64,000 nt of DNA. Origin: Mucilaginibacter myungsuensis. Lineage in GTDB: Bacteria; Bacteroidota; Bacteroidia; Sphingobacteriales; Sphingobacteriaceae. Position 1 is the first letter of the stretch. Every line of letters begins with the position of its first letter. A program made the position numbers and the translations under genes. Under the pieces are notes generated by a model. It ran no database searches. It had not been told where the DNA came from and worked only from the letters and a program-made list of their open reading frames with translations. The stretch covers positions 124,001 through 188,000 of the forward strand of contig NZ_JADFFL010000002.1 of the NCBI RefSeq assembly GCF_015222005.1, written 5' to 3'. Positions 43,861 through 54,732 of this stretch are shown piece by piece.

Positions 43861-44070
43861 GTCTTGATTTCACAGATTTGACGATGATTTCACAGATTTT
43901 CTTTTCTTGAACTTCACAGATCTAAGCAGAACATCTCCGATCATCTTTAAATCGTAACAAGACTATTCGGCGATGAGATCCTTAAAGATCTGTGGAATCC
44001 TCCGCCAATCGGTGGAATCAAGAAAAATAAGATCTGTGGAATCCTCCTACCATCTGTGAGATCAAGAAAA
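43861..44070. repeat. Palindromic element with CTTGATTTCACAGATT arms, copy 1
   Basis: The left half repeats TTTCACAGAT with CTTGA and TTTTCTT pieces. The right half carries the inverse, ATCTGTGGAATC and ATCAAGAAAA. The two halves fold on each other over about 210 bp. A related element is at 54596-54732. It lies directly upstream of the LytS-type kinase at 44145. Confidence 0.7.
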
Positions 44071-44144: not shown

Positions 44145-45611
44145 ATGGAAAAGAAACCTTCATTTATTTCTTATCGCCGAGTAGAATTCGCTATTGCTAC
44201 CTTTATTACCATATACATTCTATTTCTGGCCTTAACCGACGCACCCCGGGAAAGAATGTGGGCTGCCTGCTTGATAACAGTATCGACCTATTGCAGTTTT
44301 TTGATCTTGAATTATTGGGTATGGCCACAATACGTGCAAAAAAAGCGCTATTGGGAAGCCGTGGGGCTAACAGTGATCTTAGCGTTTTTAGCCAGCCTGA
44401 CCTACATGGTCTATTTCAGTTATAAATACAACTGGATACGTAAAATCGAAGATGACCCCAACCGTTTCTTTCTGCAACAGGGATGCAGCATGGCCTTGGC
44501 TTTCCTTATGTTTTACATTGTCTATGTGATCGTTCGCGAAATAGTTGCTTATCAGCATCGATCGGCATTGAACACATCCGATCTGAGTTCACGCATTACC
44601 CGCGAAATTATGTTGGTGTTTGGCCTTTGGTTCGGTGGCATGATGCTCTTGTTGGTCTTTCAACATACCGGCCTCTTCAGGGTGATATTAGGGTTCTACT
44701 TTTTCTTTCTGCCCTACGCGTTCATCGTCTATTTCGTGAATTTGTATTGGCTTATCCCGGCTTATAAGCAAGGGCGTATTCAAAGCAGTTTGCTGTACTT
44801 CTTCGCTGTTTTAGCAGTTTGTGTGTCGTTCGGTATCATCGAGGTAGCGTTTCTACTGCAAACCTACCGACTACCTTTTATGGGATACGTATTGTTTTAT
44901 TGGGTGATACCTACTCCGCTGATCATTGGGTTAACATGGCGGGTTTACTTAAATAACGAGGCAACCTATCAACAACTCCAAAAACTTAAGACCGCTCTCG
45001 GCACCAGCGATGCTAACCTGCAATACCTGCGGGCGCAGATCAACCCGCACTTCCTATTCAACGCGCTAAATACGCTTTACGGCACAGCCCTGTTAGAAAA
45101 AGCCGAGAAGACTGGCGAGGGCATCCAAAAGCTGGGCGATATGATGCGCTTTATGCTGCATGAAAATAATATGGACAAGATAGCCCTGAGCCGCGAGCTG
45201 GATTATATCCACAACTATATCGATCTGCAAAATATGCGTCTGGCCTTATCGCCGGAGATGAATATTGATATACAGATAGAGGATATAATCGGTTACTACG
45301 AGATAGCCCCGATGTTATTGATACCGTTTATAGAGAACGCATATAAACATGGCATCAGTCACCAAAATAAGTCGTGGATAAACGTTAACCTTTACAAGCG
45401 CGATAACATCCTGCACCTGGATGTACACAACAGCATGCACCCATATAACGAGAATGATCCCGAACGCGACCGATCGGGTACCGGCCTCAACAACGTTAAA
45501 CAACGCTTGCAACTGAGCTATCCCGACAAGCACGAACTGGTGGTGCGCGAGAACGGTAAGGAATTTTTCATCCACCTATCTATCGAATTGACGATCATCA
45601 AAACTTTGTAA
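44145..45611 (+). CDS. LytS-type sensor histidine kinase with eight membrane helices
   Basis: The 488-residue kinase has about eight membrane helices filling residues 18-270. The His_kinase domain carries INPHFLFNALNT (phospho-accepting His) and the ATP-binding segments LLIPFIENAYKHG and GTGLNNVKQRL. Its partner regulator is not next to it but 3.2 kb downstream (48806). Two secreted thioredoxin-fold genes lie between, at close spacing (7 bp to the first). The sensory input is therefore probably linked to the envelope and perhaps to redox state. Confidence 0.9.
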   Translation: MEKKPSFISYRRVEFAIATFITIYILFLALTDAPRERMWAACLITVSTYCSFLILNYWVWPQYVQKKRYWEAVGLTVILAFLASLTYMVYFSYKYNWIRKIEDDPNRFFLQQGCSMALAFLMFYIVYVIVREIVAYQHRSALNTSDLSSRITREIMLVFGLWFGGMMLLLVFQHTGLFRVILGFYFFFLPYAFIVYFVNLYWLIPAYKQGRIQSSLLYFFAVLAVCVSFGIIEVAFLLQTYRLPFMGYVLFYWVIPTPLIIGLTWRVYLNNEATYQQLQKLKTALGTSDANLQYLRAQINPHFLFNALNTLYGTALLEKAEKTGEGIQKLGDMMRFMLHENNMDKIALSRELDYIHNYIDLQNMRLALSPEMNIDIQIEDIIGYYEIAPMLLIPFIENAYKHGISHQNKSWINVNLYKRDNILHLDVHNSMHPYNENDPERDRSGTGLNNVKQRLQLSYPDKHELVVRENGKEFFIHLSIELTIIKTL

Positions 45612-45618
45612 CATCATT

Positions 45619-47148
45619 ATGAAAAATATTTATTTAACCCTGATACTGGCAATCGGAGCGCTCGGTACATCAGCTCAGCAATTGGTGCTTAAAGGGCACG
45701 TAAAAGTACTACCGATAAACGACTCGATCGAGGTAAATACCTCTTACGACGGATATCATTGGAAGAAAGGGTCAATATATTTAAAGGCAAATGCTGCAGG
45801 TAATTTCAGTAAGATATTACCCTATAAACAAGCCAGGTTTGTCCAGCTGATCTATGGAAAAAGCACACAGTATATGCTGTTAACACCAGGCAGAGATGTG
45901 CAAGTATCGATCGCTGTTGATGCCGGATCAGCCCAATTTAACTTTACGGGCAAGGGCAAGCCGGAGAACGATCTGCTAAAAAAACTAAAATTAGAGGAGG
46001 AAGCGAACCTGCCATTTGTTAAAGAACTAAAATCGAAATATTCGTATGCAAACTGGTCCATAGATTCGGTGATCAGCATAAAGCTTCCGCTGATCAAAAG
46101 GAGTTTAGATAGTATCGGGTTATTGGTTAAAAAAGCCGGCCTGCCTATCGCTATTCAAGGCGCTATCAATACTCAACTTAAATACCAATATGCCAGCGGG
46201 CTGGCCAATAGTTTAGCCAATAAGCTAAACACAAGAACCAACAGGGCCGACTTTAACCTCAAATATATTGATGCTGTATTGACAAATTTTACCGTCCCGC
46301 AAAAACAAGAATTGGAGATAAGCGCAGCGGCAAATTATTACCTGGATGCTTACATGAAACTAAAATTGTGGAAAGGGATGTATCAATACCGCACCGATAA
46401 GGATACCATCCACGCGGCAGCTATATTTAAGAAAGACATGGGCGTTGTCTATGCCGATTTGGCGAACGACCCCGATCGCACTAACGAGGTTTATTTGTTC
46501 GGGACCCGGCTTAAAACCATTGTGCCGGCTTATGCCTGGGAAAAGCATCTCACCAATTTGTTATACCGTTTTTGTATGCAGGGACAATTGCAGACCGCAA
46601 CCAAAATGATGCGGTTCATTAAGAACAATTGCGAGGACAAGCAATATATATTAGTAAGCGAAAAAATGTTCGCTCCCTTAAAACAACAGCGCGACCAATA
46701 TGCCAATAATCTGAACATCAAGATACGCGCCGATTACCGCACCACTTCAACAGTGAAAGATATGGTGGCACCGTATAAAGGCAAAGTAGTTTTTGTTGAT
46801 ATGTGGGGGACCTGGTGCCCTTACTGTATATCGGATATGGAGTTTGAGCCGGCGCTAAAAGAACGCTTGAAAGATAAAGAGGTAGTGTTTTTATACATTG
46901 CCCGGGATGAAGATGAGGACGATGAAAAATGGCGCGACTTTATTTTTATCAACAACCTTACCGGCGAACACATCCGCAGAAATTCTGATCAGATATCGTC
47001 GGTATGGAACGAGTTCGGGATACCGGATAACGAACAGGCTTACCCGCGTTATTTGATATTTGACAAAGACGGTAAACTTGTCGAAAAGAATGCAAAACGG
47101 CCAACTGACAAAGCTGGCCTGGCCGTACAAATAGAAAAATACCTTTAA
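45619..47148 (+). CDS. Secreted TlpA-like thioredoxin, first of two
   Basis: The 509-residue protein has a signal peptide (to about residue 20, TSAQ), an N-terminal beta domain and a helical middle. A C-terminal TlpA-type thioredoxin domain carries the redox motif CPYC in WGTWCPYC. It lies 7 bp after the sensor-kinase gene and is followed by a paralogue. It is probably a periplasmic disulfide reductase or a redox partner of the sensor. Function in this operon is inferred from position only. Confidence 0.87.
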   Translation: MKNIYLTLILAIGALGTSAQQLVLKGHVKVLPINDSIEVNTSYDGYHWKKGSIYLKANAAGNFSKILPYKQARFVQLIYGKSTQYMLLTPGRDVQVSIAVDAGSAQFNFTGKGKPENDLLKKLKLEEEANLPFVKELKSKYSYANWSIDSVISIKLPLIKRSLDSIGLLVKKAGLPIAIQGAINTQLKYQYASGLANSLANKLNTRTNRADFNLKYIDAVLTNFTVPQKQELEISAAANYYLDAYMKLKLWKGMYQYRTDKDTIHAAAIFKKDMGVVYADLANDPDRTNEVYLFGTRLKTIVPAYAWEKHLTNLLYRFCMQGQLQTATKMMRFIKNNCEDKQYILVSEKMFAPLKQQRDQYANNLNIKIRADYRTTSTVKDMVAPYKGKVVFVDMWGTWCPYCISDMEFEPALKERLKDKEVVFLYIARDEDEDDEKWRDFIFINNLTGEHIRRNSDQISSVWNEFGIPDNEQAYPRYLIFDKDGKLVEKNAKRPTDKAGLAVQIEKYL

Positions 47149-47166
47149 ATATTCGCCTATTATCAT

Positions 47167-47290
47167 AACCACAAATCGCGTAAAGAGAAAACCACAAGTA
47201 CACAAAGGCATAGTTCGCTAATACATCGTGCAAAGCTTTGTGCCCTTTGTGTCTATAATGGATCTACCAGTCTTTGTGCGCTTTGTGGTT
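47167..47290. repeat. Palindromic element between the two thioredoxin genes
   Basis: The outer arms AACCACAAATCGCG and CGCTTTGTGGTT pair with few mismatches. An inner pair CACAAAGGCA/TGCCCTTTGTG adds a second hairpin. It occupies nearly all of the 166-bp gap, and the true start of the next gene (47315) lies after it. Confidence 0.65.
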
Positions 47291-47314
47291 AAATTCGTCA
47301 AACACCAACCAAAA

Positions 47315-48805
47315 ATGAAAAAAATAACCATAACCGTCCTCTTAGCCATAGCCACCCTAAGCAGCATGGCCCAATTTAAGATCAGTGGCCATATAGATCA
47401 TATATCCAGGCCCGACAGCATTATCCTGAACCTCCCTTATGTTTACGGATACTACCGCGAGAATAACCAGACCATTCCCGTTGATGCTAAAGGGAATTTC
47501 AGCTTTACCGTTCCGCTCAGAGAGCAAAAATTCGCGACTATCGATTGGCAAAATAAAGAGATATCGATATTGATGACCCCGGGGAAGTCGCTGCTGCTTA
47601 CGCTGGATACCGGTCGCCAATTTAAAAAGTTTGCCGGGACCGCCGGTATTGAGAACGATCTGTTACATCAAGCCAAACTGCACGACATTGCCTTTTTTAT
47701 GCAAGGCGACCGCACTAATAACAAATACGGTTTGCTCAACGCAGCCGAAATGGAAGCGCAAGTGGTAAAACCCTGGCTAAAAATGCGGGACGATATGATC
47801 ACTAAGATCAACGCGTCGGCCTTACCTACCCAAACTAAAACGCTTATCGCATCAGAAGTGAAGTATTTCCATTATGCTATTCTGAGCGATTTTGGCCGGG
47901 TGATGATACCCGTCGATATGAAAAAGGTGGATGACTTTATTTTATCCGTTTTTGACGGCACTACACCCCAAGCCGATGTATTCCCCGCAGGACCGATGTA
48001 TTACTACTTTCACAAGGCTTATTTGAATTACACCGAGACCAAAGCGGTGGCCAAGTACGGCCAAAAAGATCCGCGGGCGTTTTTGGAAATTTATAAAATG
48101 CCGCTGGATAGTGCCAAGGTGTTAGTGAACGCCAAAGGAAAGCCTTACATCAATTGGATATTGGTAAAAAACAACGCCGACCCTAAAGTGGCCGAGCAAT
48201 ACCTTGCCCAGGCTATCTTTACCCAGATCCACGATAAGAATATCAATTTTGCCGAAACGCTGATGAGCGAGTTGGAAAAGACCTTCCCGCAAAGCGTGCA
48301 TAAACAGTTCCTGCAAAACAAGATCACCGGGTTGAACGCGTTGTATCTGGCTAATAAGAATAACGAGAGCATACAGGTTTTTAAAGGTTATGAAAAGGTA
48401 AAGTCGATATATAACATCGTGAGTACCCTAAAAGGTAAAGTGGTTTACCTGGACATTTGGGGAACATGGTGCGGCCCTTGTAAAGAGGAGATCGCTTATC
48501 TGCCTAAGCTTAAAAAGCATTTTGAAGGTAAGGATGTAGTGTACCTTTACCTGGATATGGACGACGACGAAAAGGACGAAGCCTGGAAACAATTTATCCG
48601 CGTTAACGGGATGACCGGCATCCACATCCGCAAGAACGGCAAAGATGTACAAGCCTTTTGGGCCGAGTTACAAGCCGACGAAAACAAGCGTGGTTATTAC
48701 CCAACTTACTTTATCTTCAACAAAGATGGTAAATTAGTCCAGCCAAATGCCGAGCGCCCAAGCGCCGAAGATGCGCTGTACAAACAATTAGAAAAATACC
48801 TGTAA
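47315..48805 (+). CDS. Secreted TlpA-like thioredoxin, second of two
   Basis: The start at 47315 (MKKITITVLL) gives a signal peptide ending at SMAQ; an opening at 47228 would start in repeat DNA. The 496-residue protein has the same order of regions as its neighbour and the redox motif CGPC in WGTWCGPC, the classical thioredoxin sequence. Its stop codon directly adjoins the ATG of the response-regulator gene (TAAATG), so the genes are translationally linked. Confidence 0.87.
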   Translation: MKKITITVLLAIATLSSMAQFKISGHIDHISRPDSIILNLPYVYGYYRENNQTIPVDAKGNFSFTVPLREQKFATIDWQNKEISILMTPGKSLLLTLDTGRQFKKFAGTAGIENDLLHQAKLHDIAFFMQGDRTNNKYGLLNAAEMEAQVVKPWLKMRDDMITKINASALPTQTKTLIASEVKYFHYAILSDFGRVMIPVDMKKVDDFILSVFDGTTPQADVFPAGPMYYYFHKAYLNYTETKAVAKYGQKDPRAFLEIYKMPLDSAKVLVNAKGKPYINWILVKNNADPKVAEQYLAQAIFTQIHDKNINFAETLMSELEKTFPQSVHKQFLQNKITGLNALYLANKNNESIQVFKGYEKVKSIYNIVSTLKGKVVYLDIWGTWCGPCKEEIAYLPKLKKHFEGKDVVYLYLDMDDDEKDEAWKQFIRVNGMTGIHIRKNGKDVQAFWAELQADENKRGYYPTYFIFNKDGKLVQPNAERPSAEDALYKQLEKYL

Positions 48806-49489
48806 ATGATCAAAGCCATAGCTGTAGACGATGAACCGTTAGCGTTAGAGGTGATCCGCTCGCATGCCGGGCGGGTGCCCTTTTTGCAGATGGCGGGTTA
48901 TTTTACCAACGCCTTTGAGGCTATCGACTTTATGGCCCGCGAACGTATGGATCTGCTTTTCCTGGATATTAAAATGCCCGATATCTCGGGCATCGAATTG
49001 ATGGAAGGCCTGCAGCAAAAACCAATGGTGATCTTCACCACGGCCTATGCCGAGCATGCCGTGACCAGCTATGAATTGAACGCGACGGACTATCTGCTCA
49101 AGCCATTCTCCTATCCCCGCTTTTTAAAAGCCTGCCACAAGGCGCACGAGCAATTGCAATTAAAACAAGGCAACAAACCCGCCGTGGCCGACAGCGTATT
49201 TGTAAAAACAGGCTACGAGCAAGTGAAGATCATGTTCGACGAGTTACTTTACCTGGAAGGGGGCGGCAATTACATGAGTTTTGTAATGGCCGATGGCCGC
49301 ACGATCCTATCGCGACTGACCATGACCGATGCCTTGGCCCTGCTCCCTGCCGAATTATTTGCGCGGGTGCACCGATCCTACATCATCAACAAAAGCAAAG
49401 TAGATAAAATAGAACGGCATCAATTGCACCTTGGCGGACAAACCGTGCCCGTTGGTAGTGCATTTGATGCCGTTAATATATTGAAATAG
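48806..49489 (+). CDS. LytTR-type response regulator
   Basis: The 227-residue protein has a receiver domain (DDE at 8-10, Asp54, Lys99) and a LytTR DNA-binding domain from about residue 130 (FARVHRSYIINKSKVDKIE). It follows the second thioredoxin gene with no gap. It is most likely the partner of the kinase at 44145, since no other kinase lies on this transcript. Confidence 0.93.
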   Translation: MIKAIAVDDEPLALEVIRSHAGRVPFLQMAGYFTNAFEAIDFMARERMDLLFLDIKMPDISGIELMEGLQQKPMVIFTTAYAEHAVTSYELNATDYLLKPFSYPRFLKACHKAHEQLQLKQGNKPAVADSVFVKTGYEQVKIMFDELLYLEGGGNYMSFVMADGRTILSRLTMTDALALLPAELFARVHRSYIINKSKVDKIERHQLHLGGQTVPVGSAFDAVNILK

Positions 49490-54595: not shown

Positions 54596-54732
54596 CTTGA
54601 TCTCACCGATTTGAGGAGGATTTCACCGATTTTTTGAACTCTCTTGTTTAGCGAGCTCTTGCAGGAATCTTATTACCATTCTGCAAATGAAAATCTGTGG
54701 ACTCCTTCCAAAATCTGTGGAATCAAGAAAAG
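54596..54732. repeat. Palindromic element with TTCACCGATT arms, copy 2
   Basis: The left arm CTTGATCTCACCGATT and following ATTTCACCGATT pair with the right arm AAAATCTGTGG-n-ATCAAG. This is the same family as 43861-44070. It lies downstream of a response-regulator gene and converges with the FISUMP gene, where it may serve as a terminator for both. Confidence 0.65.

Follow-up and report, generated by a model that had tools for sequence, protein, structure and literature searches.

Why does a sensor kinase of Mucilaginibacter myungsuensis stand apart from its response regulator, with two genes for predicted secreted thioredoxins lying between them? The locus belongs to a stretch of 64,000 nucleotides (contig NZ_JADFFL010000002.1, positions 124,001 to 188,000), here called the window. 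A thioredoxin in this position could be part of the signalling device, a product that the device controls, or a passenger.

A kinase and its regulator split by two thioredoxin genes

All four genes are read from the forward strand. The first (44145..45611) encodes a sensor histidine kinase of 488 aa, with a Pfam His_kinase domain (PF06580) followed by an ATPase domain. The last (48806..49489) encodes a response regulator of 227 aa with a receiver and a LytTR DNA-binding domain (Pfam Response_reg and LytTR), whose top NCBIfam match, BtsR, stays under its cut-off. Between them lie thioredoxin 1 (T1; 45619..47148, 509 aa, motif WCPYC within GTWCPYC) and thioredoxin 2 (T2; 47315..48805, 496 aa, WCGPC within GTWCGPC). 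Both start with a predicted signal peptide and carry Redoxin, AhpC-TSA and Thioredoxin_8 domains (Pfam) at their C-termini only. The kinase and T1 are separated by 7 nt, T1 and T2 by a spacer of 166 nt, and T2 meets the regulator with a joint of 0 nt. ORF coordinates and Pfam bear out the order kinase-thioredoxin-thioredoxin-regulator, with its 7- and 0-nt end joints, that the first-pass annotation had described. As a PF06580 kinase and a REC-LytTR regulator lie within one operon, the locus has the composition of a LytTR two-component system.

The genome holds 19 PF06580 kinases and 20 LytTR domains. By coordinates, a LytTR domain lies 741-923 bp 3' of 18 of the 19 kinases, and 3978 bp 3' of the kinase at 44145. 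The split is therefore unusual, as had been claimed: it is the sole exception among the 19, and both further pairs within the window are unsplit.

A palindrome had also been noticed between the thioredoxin genes, and it proved to be an inverted repeat (47166..47291, no strand assigned) with 21-nt arms that are 86% complementary. Despite the good folding of the spacer (z -4.27), we ruled it out as a regulatory element of the operon, since similar DNA gives 63 matches, several of them overlapping, across the genome. It belongs to a genome-wide interspersed family and is incidental to the operon.

The promoter consensus of Bacteroidetes is -33/-7. Scanning the window for it returned 2 matches against 1.88 expected by chance, neither near the operon, and a scan for sigma-70-like promoters found fewer sites than shuffled sequences. 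Paired ATCTGTGRRATC 12-mers, inverted and 20 nt apart, occur at 43866-44063, upstream of the kinase, and at 54599-54724, close to where the second LytTR regulator ends. Such ATCTGTG-type pairs were considered as LytTR operators and rejected: 17 pair matches are scattered through the genome, and most of them do not lie near LytTR genes. They are probably another interspersed repeat.

Recurrence and history of the three-gene order

In relatives the slot between kinase and regulator can hold a single protein of this kind, which we call T. The kinase was searched in 201 genomes of the family (E <= 1e-60) and found in 86, and the neighbourhoods of all matches were read, giving 90 kinase loci including the window. 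T lies between kinase and LytTR regulator in 21 of the 90. The remaining 69 keep kinase and regulator without it, so T is dispensable.

A profile built from 21 T proteins (alignment A1) was then searched on its own in genome samples that overlap. It matched 25 of 201 genomes in the family sample (26 matches), 28 of 149 in the genus sample (30 matches), 48 of 400 in the order sample, all 48 from the family of the window, and 2 of 395 in the phylum-wide sample, both from its genus. In total these searches placed 58 distinct T genes, and we inspected the neighbourhood of each. Kinase and regulator flank 44 of them (42 loci), the regulator alone flanks two (L166, and L190 at a contig end), and neither flanks 12; L169, a doubtful member on a very long branch, is counted among the 58 as lacking both. 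In L109 T is split over two frames; the locus counts as T-plus and was excluded from the T tree. Among 12 additional T loci chosen by the T profile alone in the order search, eight have the order kinase-T-regulator and one further T precedes a regulator at a contig end. An earlier search for related loci over genome contigs gave 3 weak loci only and is superseded by these counts.

T and the kinase keep company: T occurs in 22 of the 86 genomes having the kinase versus 3 of the 115 lacking it. The first-pass annotation had reasoned that relatives with kinase and regulator adjacent and the thioredoxin elsewhere would point to a recent insertion. This is mostly not what we find. While 21 of the 86 kinase genomes hold T in the slot, just one of the other 65 (G076) has T elsewhere; T-less pairs do occur. 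The gene order whose conservation was in question is kept in 42 loci, in each of which, as in three-component systems of the QseEGF type, an accessory gene is conserved between kinase and regulator. Joints in these loci are mostly -7 to +9 nt, with exceptions reaching 60-90 nt in one group, so the three genes are probably translationally coupled. Among the papers listed by literature searches on LytTR systems, thioredoxins and three-component systems in Bacteroidetes, no title or abstract start describes the arrangement. With its central thioredoxin gene, this three-gene signalling cassette is real and conserved, and it is apparently undescribed; its recurrence across one family suggests that the thioredoxin may be part of the signalling device.

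Pairwise distances over 29 complete loci correlate equally for kinase and T (0.75), regulator and T (0.76) and kinase and regulator (0.76), with 0 of 2000 permutations as high; the set excludes three loci with a short T (L073, L079 and L167) as well as L160, whose kinase runs into a contig end. These correlations indicate that the trio shares one history. Together with the order kept in 42 loci, this supports a functional linkage of the thioredoxin with kinase and regulator. A specific coevolution of T with the kinase membrane domain, also raised beforehand, did not emerge: given the kinase catalytic domain and the regulator (29 loci), the partial correlation of the membrane domain is just 0.12 with the N-terminal region of T (25 of 1000 permutations as high) and 0.16 with its thioredoxin domain (2 of 1000).

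T is scattered on the kinase tree, requiring 11 changes, at least 9 of them forced by starred branches, counts that alone do not separate gain from loss. However, deep lineages with T are found in several genera, and the remains of a decayed T (tblastn E 6e-5) are still recognisable in the T-less slot of L101 (554 nt), which makes that slot a case of loss. The distribution thus reads as early presence of T followed by repeated loss.

The slot admits other genes as well. Second thioredoxin-type genes are found in L057 (362 aa), L066 (419 aa), L077 (387 aa, CSPC) and L180 (a tandem T). We considered a non-random recruitment of these extra copies and dropped it, as the binomial figures used assumed event numbers and background rates; only the recurrence stands. 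Thioredoxin-type genes also cluster elsewhere in the genome of the window, with two other close pairs among 30 matches. Non-thioredoxin occupants of the slot at other loci are an esterase, a small membrane protein and a small endonuclease-like gene. The secreted esterase gene lies between kinase and T in L098 and L181 (PF00756 in L098; the L181 homologue was judged by eye). In one genus (L124, L134, L137, L077) kinase and regulator are separated by a small gene with a resemblance to GIY-YIG proteins. In L183 and L184 T follows a secreted protein of ~480 aa, which resembles an S41-type protease, and kinase and regulator are not nearby. Since other genes occupy the slot too, a signalling role does not follow from position alone.

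The two thioredoxins of the window are not equivalent, and the locus is a two-thioredoxin variant. T2, with its CGPC motif, shares 52% identity with T from the sister locus L057, and by this relationship it is the native middle protein. T1 is only ~28% identical to T2 and ~60% to solo T proteins with CPHC motifs. Members of the T1 clade elsewhere sit beside an ECF sigma factor: the solo T genes L076, L154, L164 and L191 (4 genomes, 3 genera) come after genes for a DUF6249 protein, the ECF sigma factor (Sigma70_r2 and r4, by Pfam on the L154 copies) and a small membrane protein. The genome of the window retains this cassette, with no T directly after it. The simplest reading is that T1 is an added copy, recruited into the kinase slot.

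Architecture of the middle protein and of the kinase

T is composed of a predicted signal peptide, an unnamed region of ~330 residues and a thioredoxin domain of the ResA/TlpA kind. The N-termini are signal-peptide-like and the lipobox is absent. In the AlphaFold2 model of T2 (mean pLDDT 93.1, pTM 0.88) a beta domain (residues 20-107) is followed by a helical region (111-347) and the thioredoxin domain (353-496). The last matches 4ka0, 4grf and ResA with Z 13-14 at 24-30% identity, the value for 4ka0 being Z 14.4. Among the matches listed by Foldseek and VIA-align, all T2 rows fell on this domain. The N-terminal region matches no Pfam or NCBIfam family above cut-off, DUF4369 reaching just E 0.03 in one homologue.

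W385, C386, C389, Y462 and P463 are invariant in A1. T has three marks of TlpA/ResA proteins, namely the thioredoxin fold, the WCxxC motif and, within the YP pair, the conserved Pro; T2 scores under the NCBIfam cut-offs for both (46 bits against 170 for ResA, 42 against 230 for TlpA). WCxxC is kept in 39 of 39 full-length T proteins of the tree set, and as they carry CxxC, the Sco-type copper motif CxxxC is absent. With a mean distance of 0.56 against 1.41, the thioredoxin domain is more conserved than the N-terminal region.

Five T proteins of 341-343 aa (L150, L165, L166, L167 and L168) consist of the N-terminal region alone, and their existence makes an independent function of this region probable. 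In L167 such a protein lies between a shortened kinase and the regulator; in L166 it precedes the regulator and the kinase is absent; in L150 and L168 kinase and regulator are gone, and in L165 neither is seen, the upstream flank being cut by a contig end. The five represent one locus type, which has a transglutaminase-like gene and a gene for an aminotransferase as its neighbours, in graded loss from kinase-T-regulator to T-regulator to T alone.

The kinase model (AlphaFold2, mean pLDDT 84.8) has eight membrane helices (residues 10-270). As these are joined by short loops, the kinase appears to have no extracytoplasmic sensor domain. Neither the whole protein nor its membrane part matches a 5TM domain of the LytS type or another Pfam sensor domain. 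Helices 1-4 and 5-8, aligned as a possible duplication, reached an hhalign probability of 44%. T accompanies none of six short kinases (Fisher p 0.33).

A proposed accessory role for the middle protein

A kinase lacking a sensor domain would need a signal from the membrane or a partner, which makes a secreted partner whose gene lies between those two a natural candidate for its input. As a functional analogue QseE-QseG-QseF of E. coli fits best, and the best thioredoxin-fold analogue is SenC/PrrC of the RegB/RegA systems. In QseE-QseG-QseF, an extracytoplasmic accessory protein, as T is predicted to be, shares one operon with kinase and regulator, and QseG binds the kinase in the periplasm and is required for QseE/QseF activity (PMC6075780, PMC12691602). 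QseG differs from T in being a lipoprotein of the outer membrane rather than a thioredoxin. The periplasmic domain of QseE comprises ~140 residues, and no such large domain lies between the helices of our kinase model; QseF acts on sigma54 promoters, whereas the regulator of the window is of the LytTR type.

RegB-SenC-RegA and PrrB-PrrC-PrrA are redox systems in which a periplasm-facing thioredoxin-fold protein is cotranscribed with the kinase, the regulator or both (PMC9147068, PMC7558416). SenC/PrrC are Sco copper chaperones, whose motif is CxxxC (PMC7558416), in contrast to the WCxxC, signal peptide and 330-residue N-terminal region of T. In HbpS-SenS-SenR of Streptomyces a secreted protein, a membrane kinase and a regulator form a redox pathway (PMC4991794). 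HbpS binds haem and iron. T resembles ResA/TlpA oxidoreductases in the thioredoxin domain, but differs from them and from the DUF4369-thioredoxin proteins of Bacteroidetes in its N-terminal region without a family match and in its coupling to a two-component system. The latter has the PF06580 and REC-LytTR domains of LytS/BtsS-type pairs; unlike these, it has the eight-helix membrane part without a Pfam sensor domain, and T between the pair. RegA/PrrA-type regulators are unrelated to the LytTR regulator of the window, and HbpS is not a thioredoxin.

On balance we lean towards a three-component signalling operon, made of an eight-helix, intramembrane-type kinase without a sensor domain, a LytTR regulator and, as secreted accessory protein, T. 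The most likely role of T is that of an extracytoplasmic accessory protein to the kinase, working as QseG does with QseE and QseF. T would act in the periplasm. There its N-terminal region, which consists of the beta domain and the helices and evolves fast, may recognise a ligand or partner and touch the outer face of the kinase, shifting the balance between autokinase and phosphatase activity. The highly conserved thioredoxin domain would control the redox state either of T itself or of some client protein, without disulfide exchange with the kinase. Several results count against an accessory role: 69 of 90 kinase neighbourhoods do without T, 12 of 58 T genes have neither kinase nor regulator beside them, a thioredoxin-less T persists in L150 and L168 where both are gone, and coevolution with the kinase membrane domain is weak.

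A real possibility, though short of probable, is that T is a co-transcribed effector: the two-component system would regulate its own operon, and T would be a periplasmic disulfide reductase whose production follows activation of the system, with no contact to the kinase. The thioredoxin domain being the more conserved part of T, the extra thioredoxin-type genes that accumulate in the slot (T1 of the window, L057, L066, L077, L180), the esterase also found there and the persistence of kinase and regulator without T all agree with this. However, T lies between kinase and regulator and not after them, and is co-inherited with them as tightly as they are with each other, which is more than usual for a target. 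Some T proteins have persisted without a thioredoxin domain, in one case with kinase and regulator on either side, and the scans found no promoter or operator upstream. It is improbable that T is a selfish or neutral insertion, functionally unlinked, which entered a permissive slot repeatedly: the scatter of T on the kinase tree and the entry of unrelated genes would fit, but the distances of T and kinase are congruent, the L101 remnant marks a loss, and T is rarely found elsewhere in kinase genomes. Least probable is a direct redox relay, in which the thioredoxin would oxidise or reduce a cysteine pair and so switch the kinase; precedents exist for redox-controlled kinases and the active-site motif is intact in every full-length T, but the best-populated cysteine column of the kinase reaches just 10 of 43 sequences, membrane parts hold 1-6 cysteines in T-plus and T-minus rows alike, and L167 keeps the three-gene order with its thioredoxin domain lost. 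Direct disulfide exchange is unlikely with no conserved kinase cysteine, and the first-pass suggestion that the thioredoxins report redox state to the kinase is unsupported insofar as it implies thiol exchange.

Returning to the accessory role, T1, from the ECF-sigma-linked clade, would have been added between the kinase and the native T, and the two proteins may work one after the other or each convey an input of its own. More speculatively, T could be an exchangeable extracytoplasmic input module for two unrelated transmembrane machines, LytTR two-component systems and pairs of an ECF sigma factor and a membrane protein. The window might then catch a T of the ECF clade that moved into a kinase-T-regulator operon, producing a two-thioredoxin sensor.

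Bacteroidota commonly have many-helix kinases that lack a sensor domain, most of them without a known input. For one clade of these, a conserved operon partner that is predicted to be secreted provides a concrete input candidate, and the natural variants in which T is missing, duplicated or without its thioredoxin domain are ready comparisons for the role of each domain.
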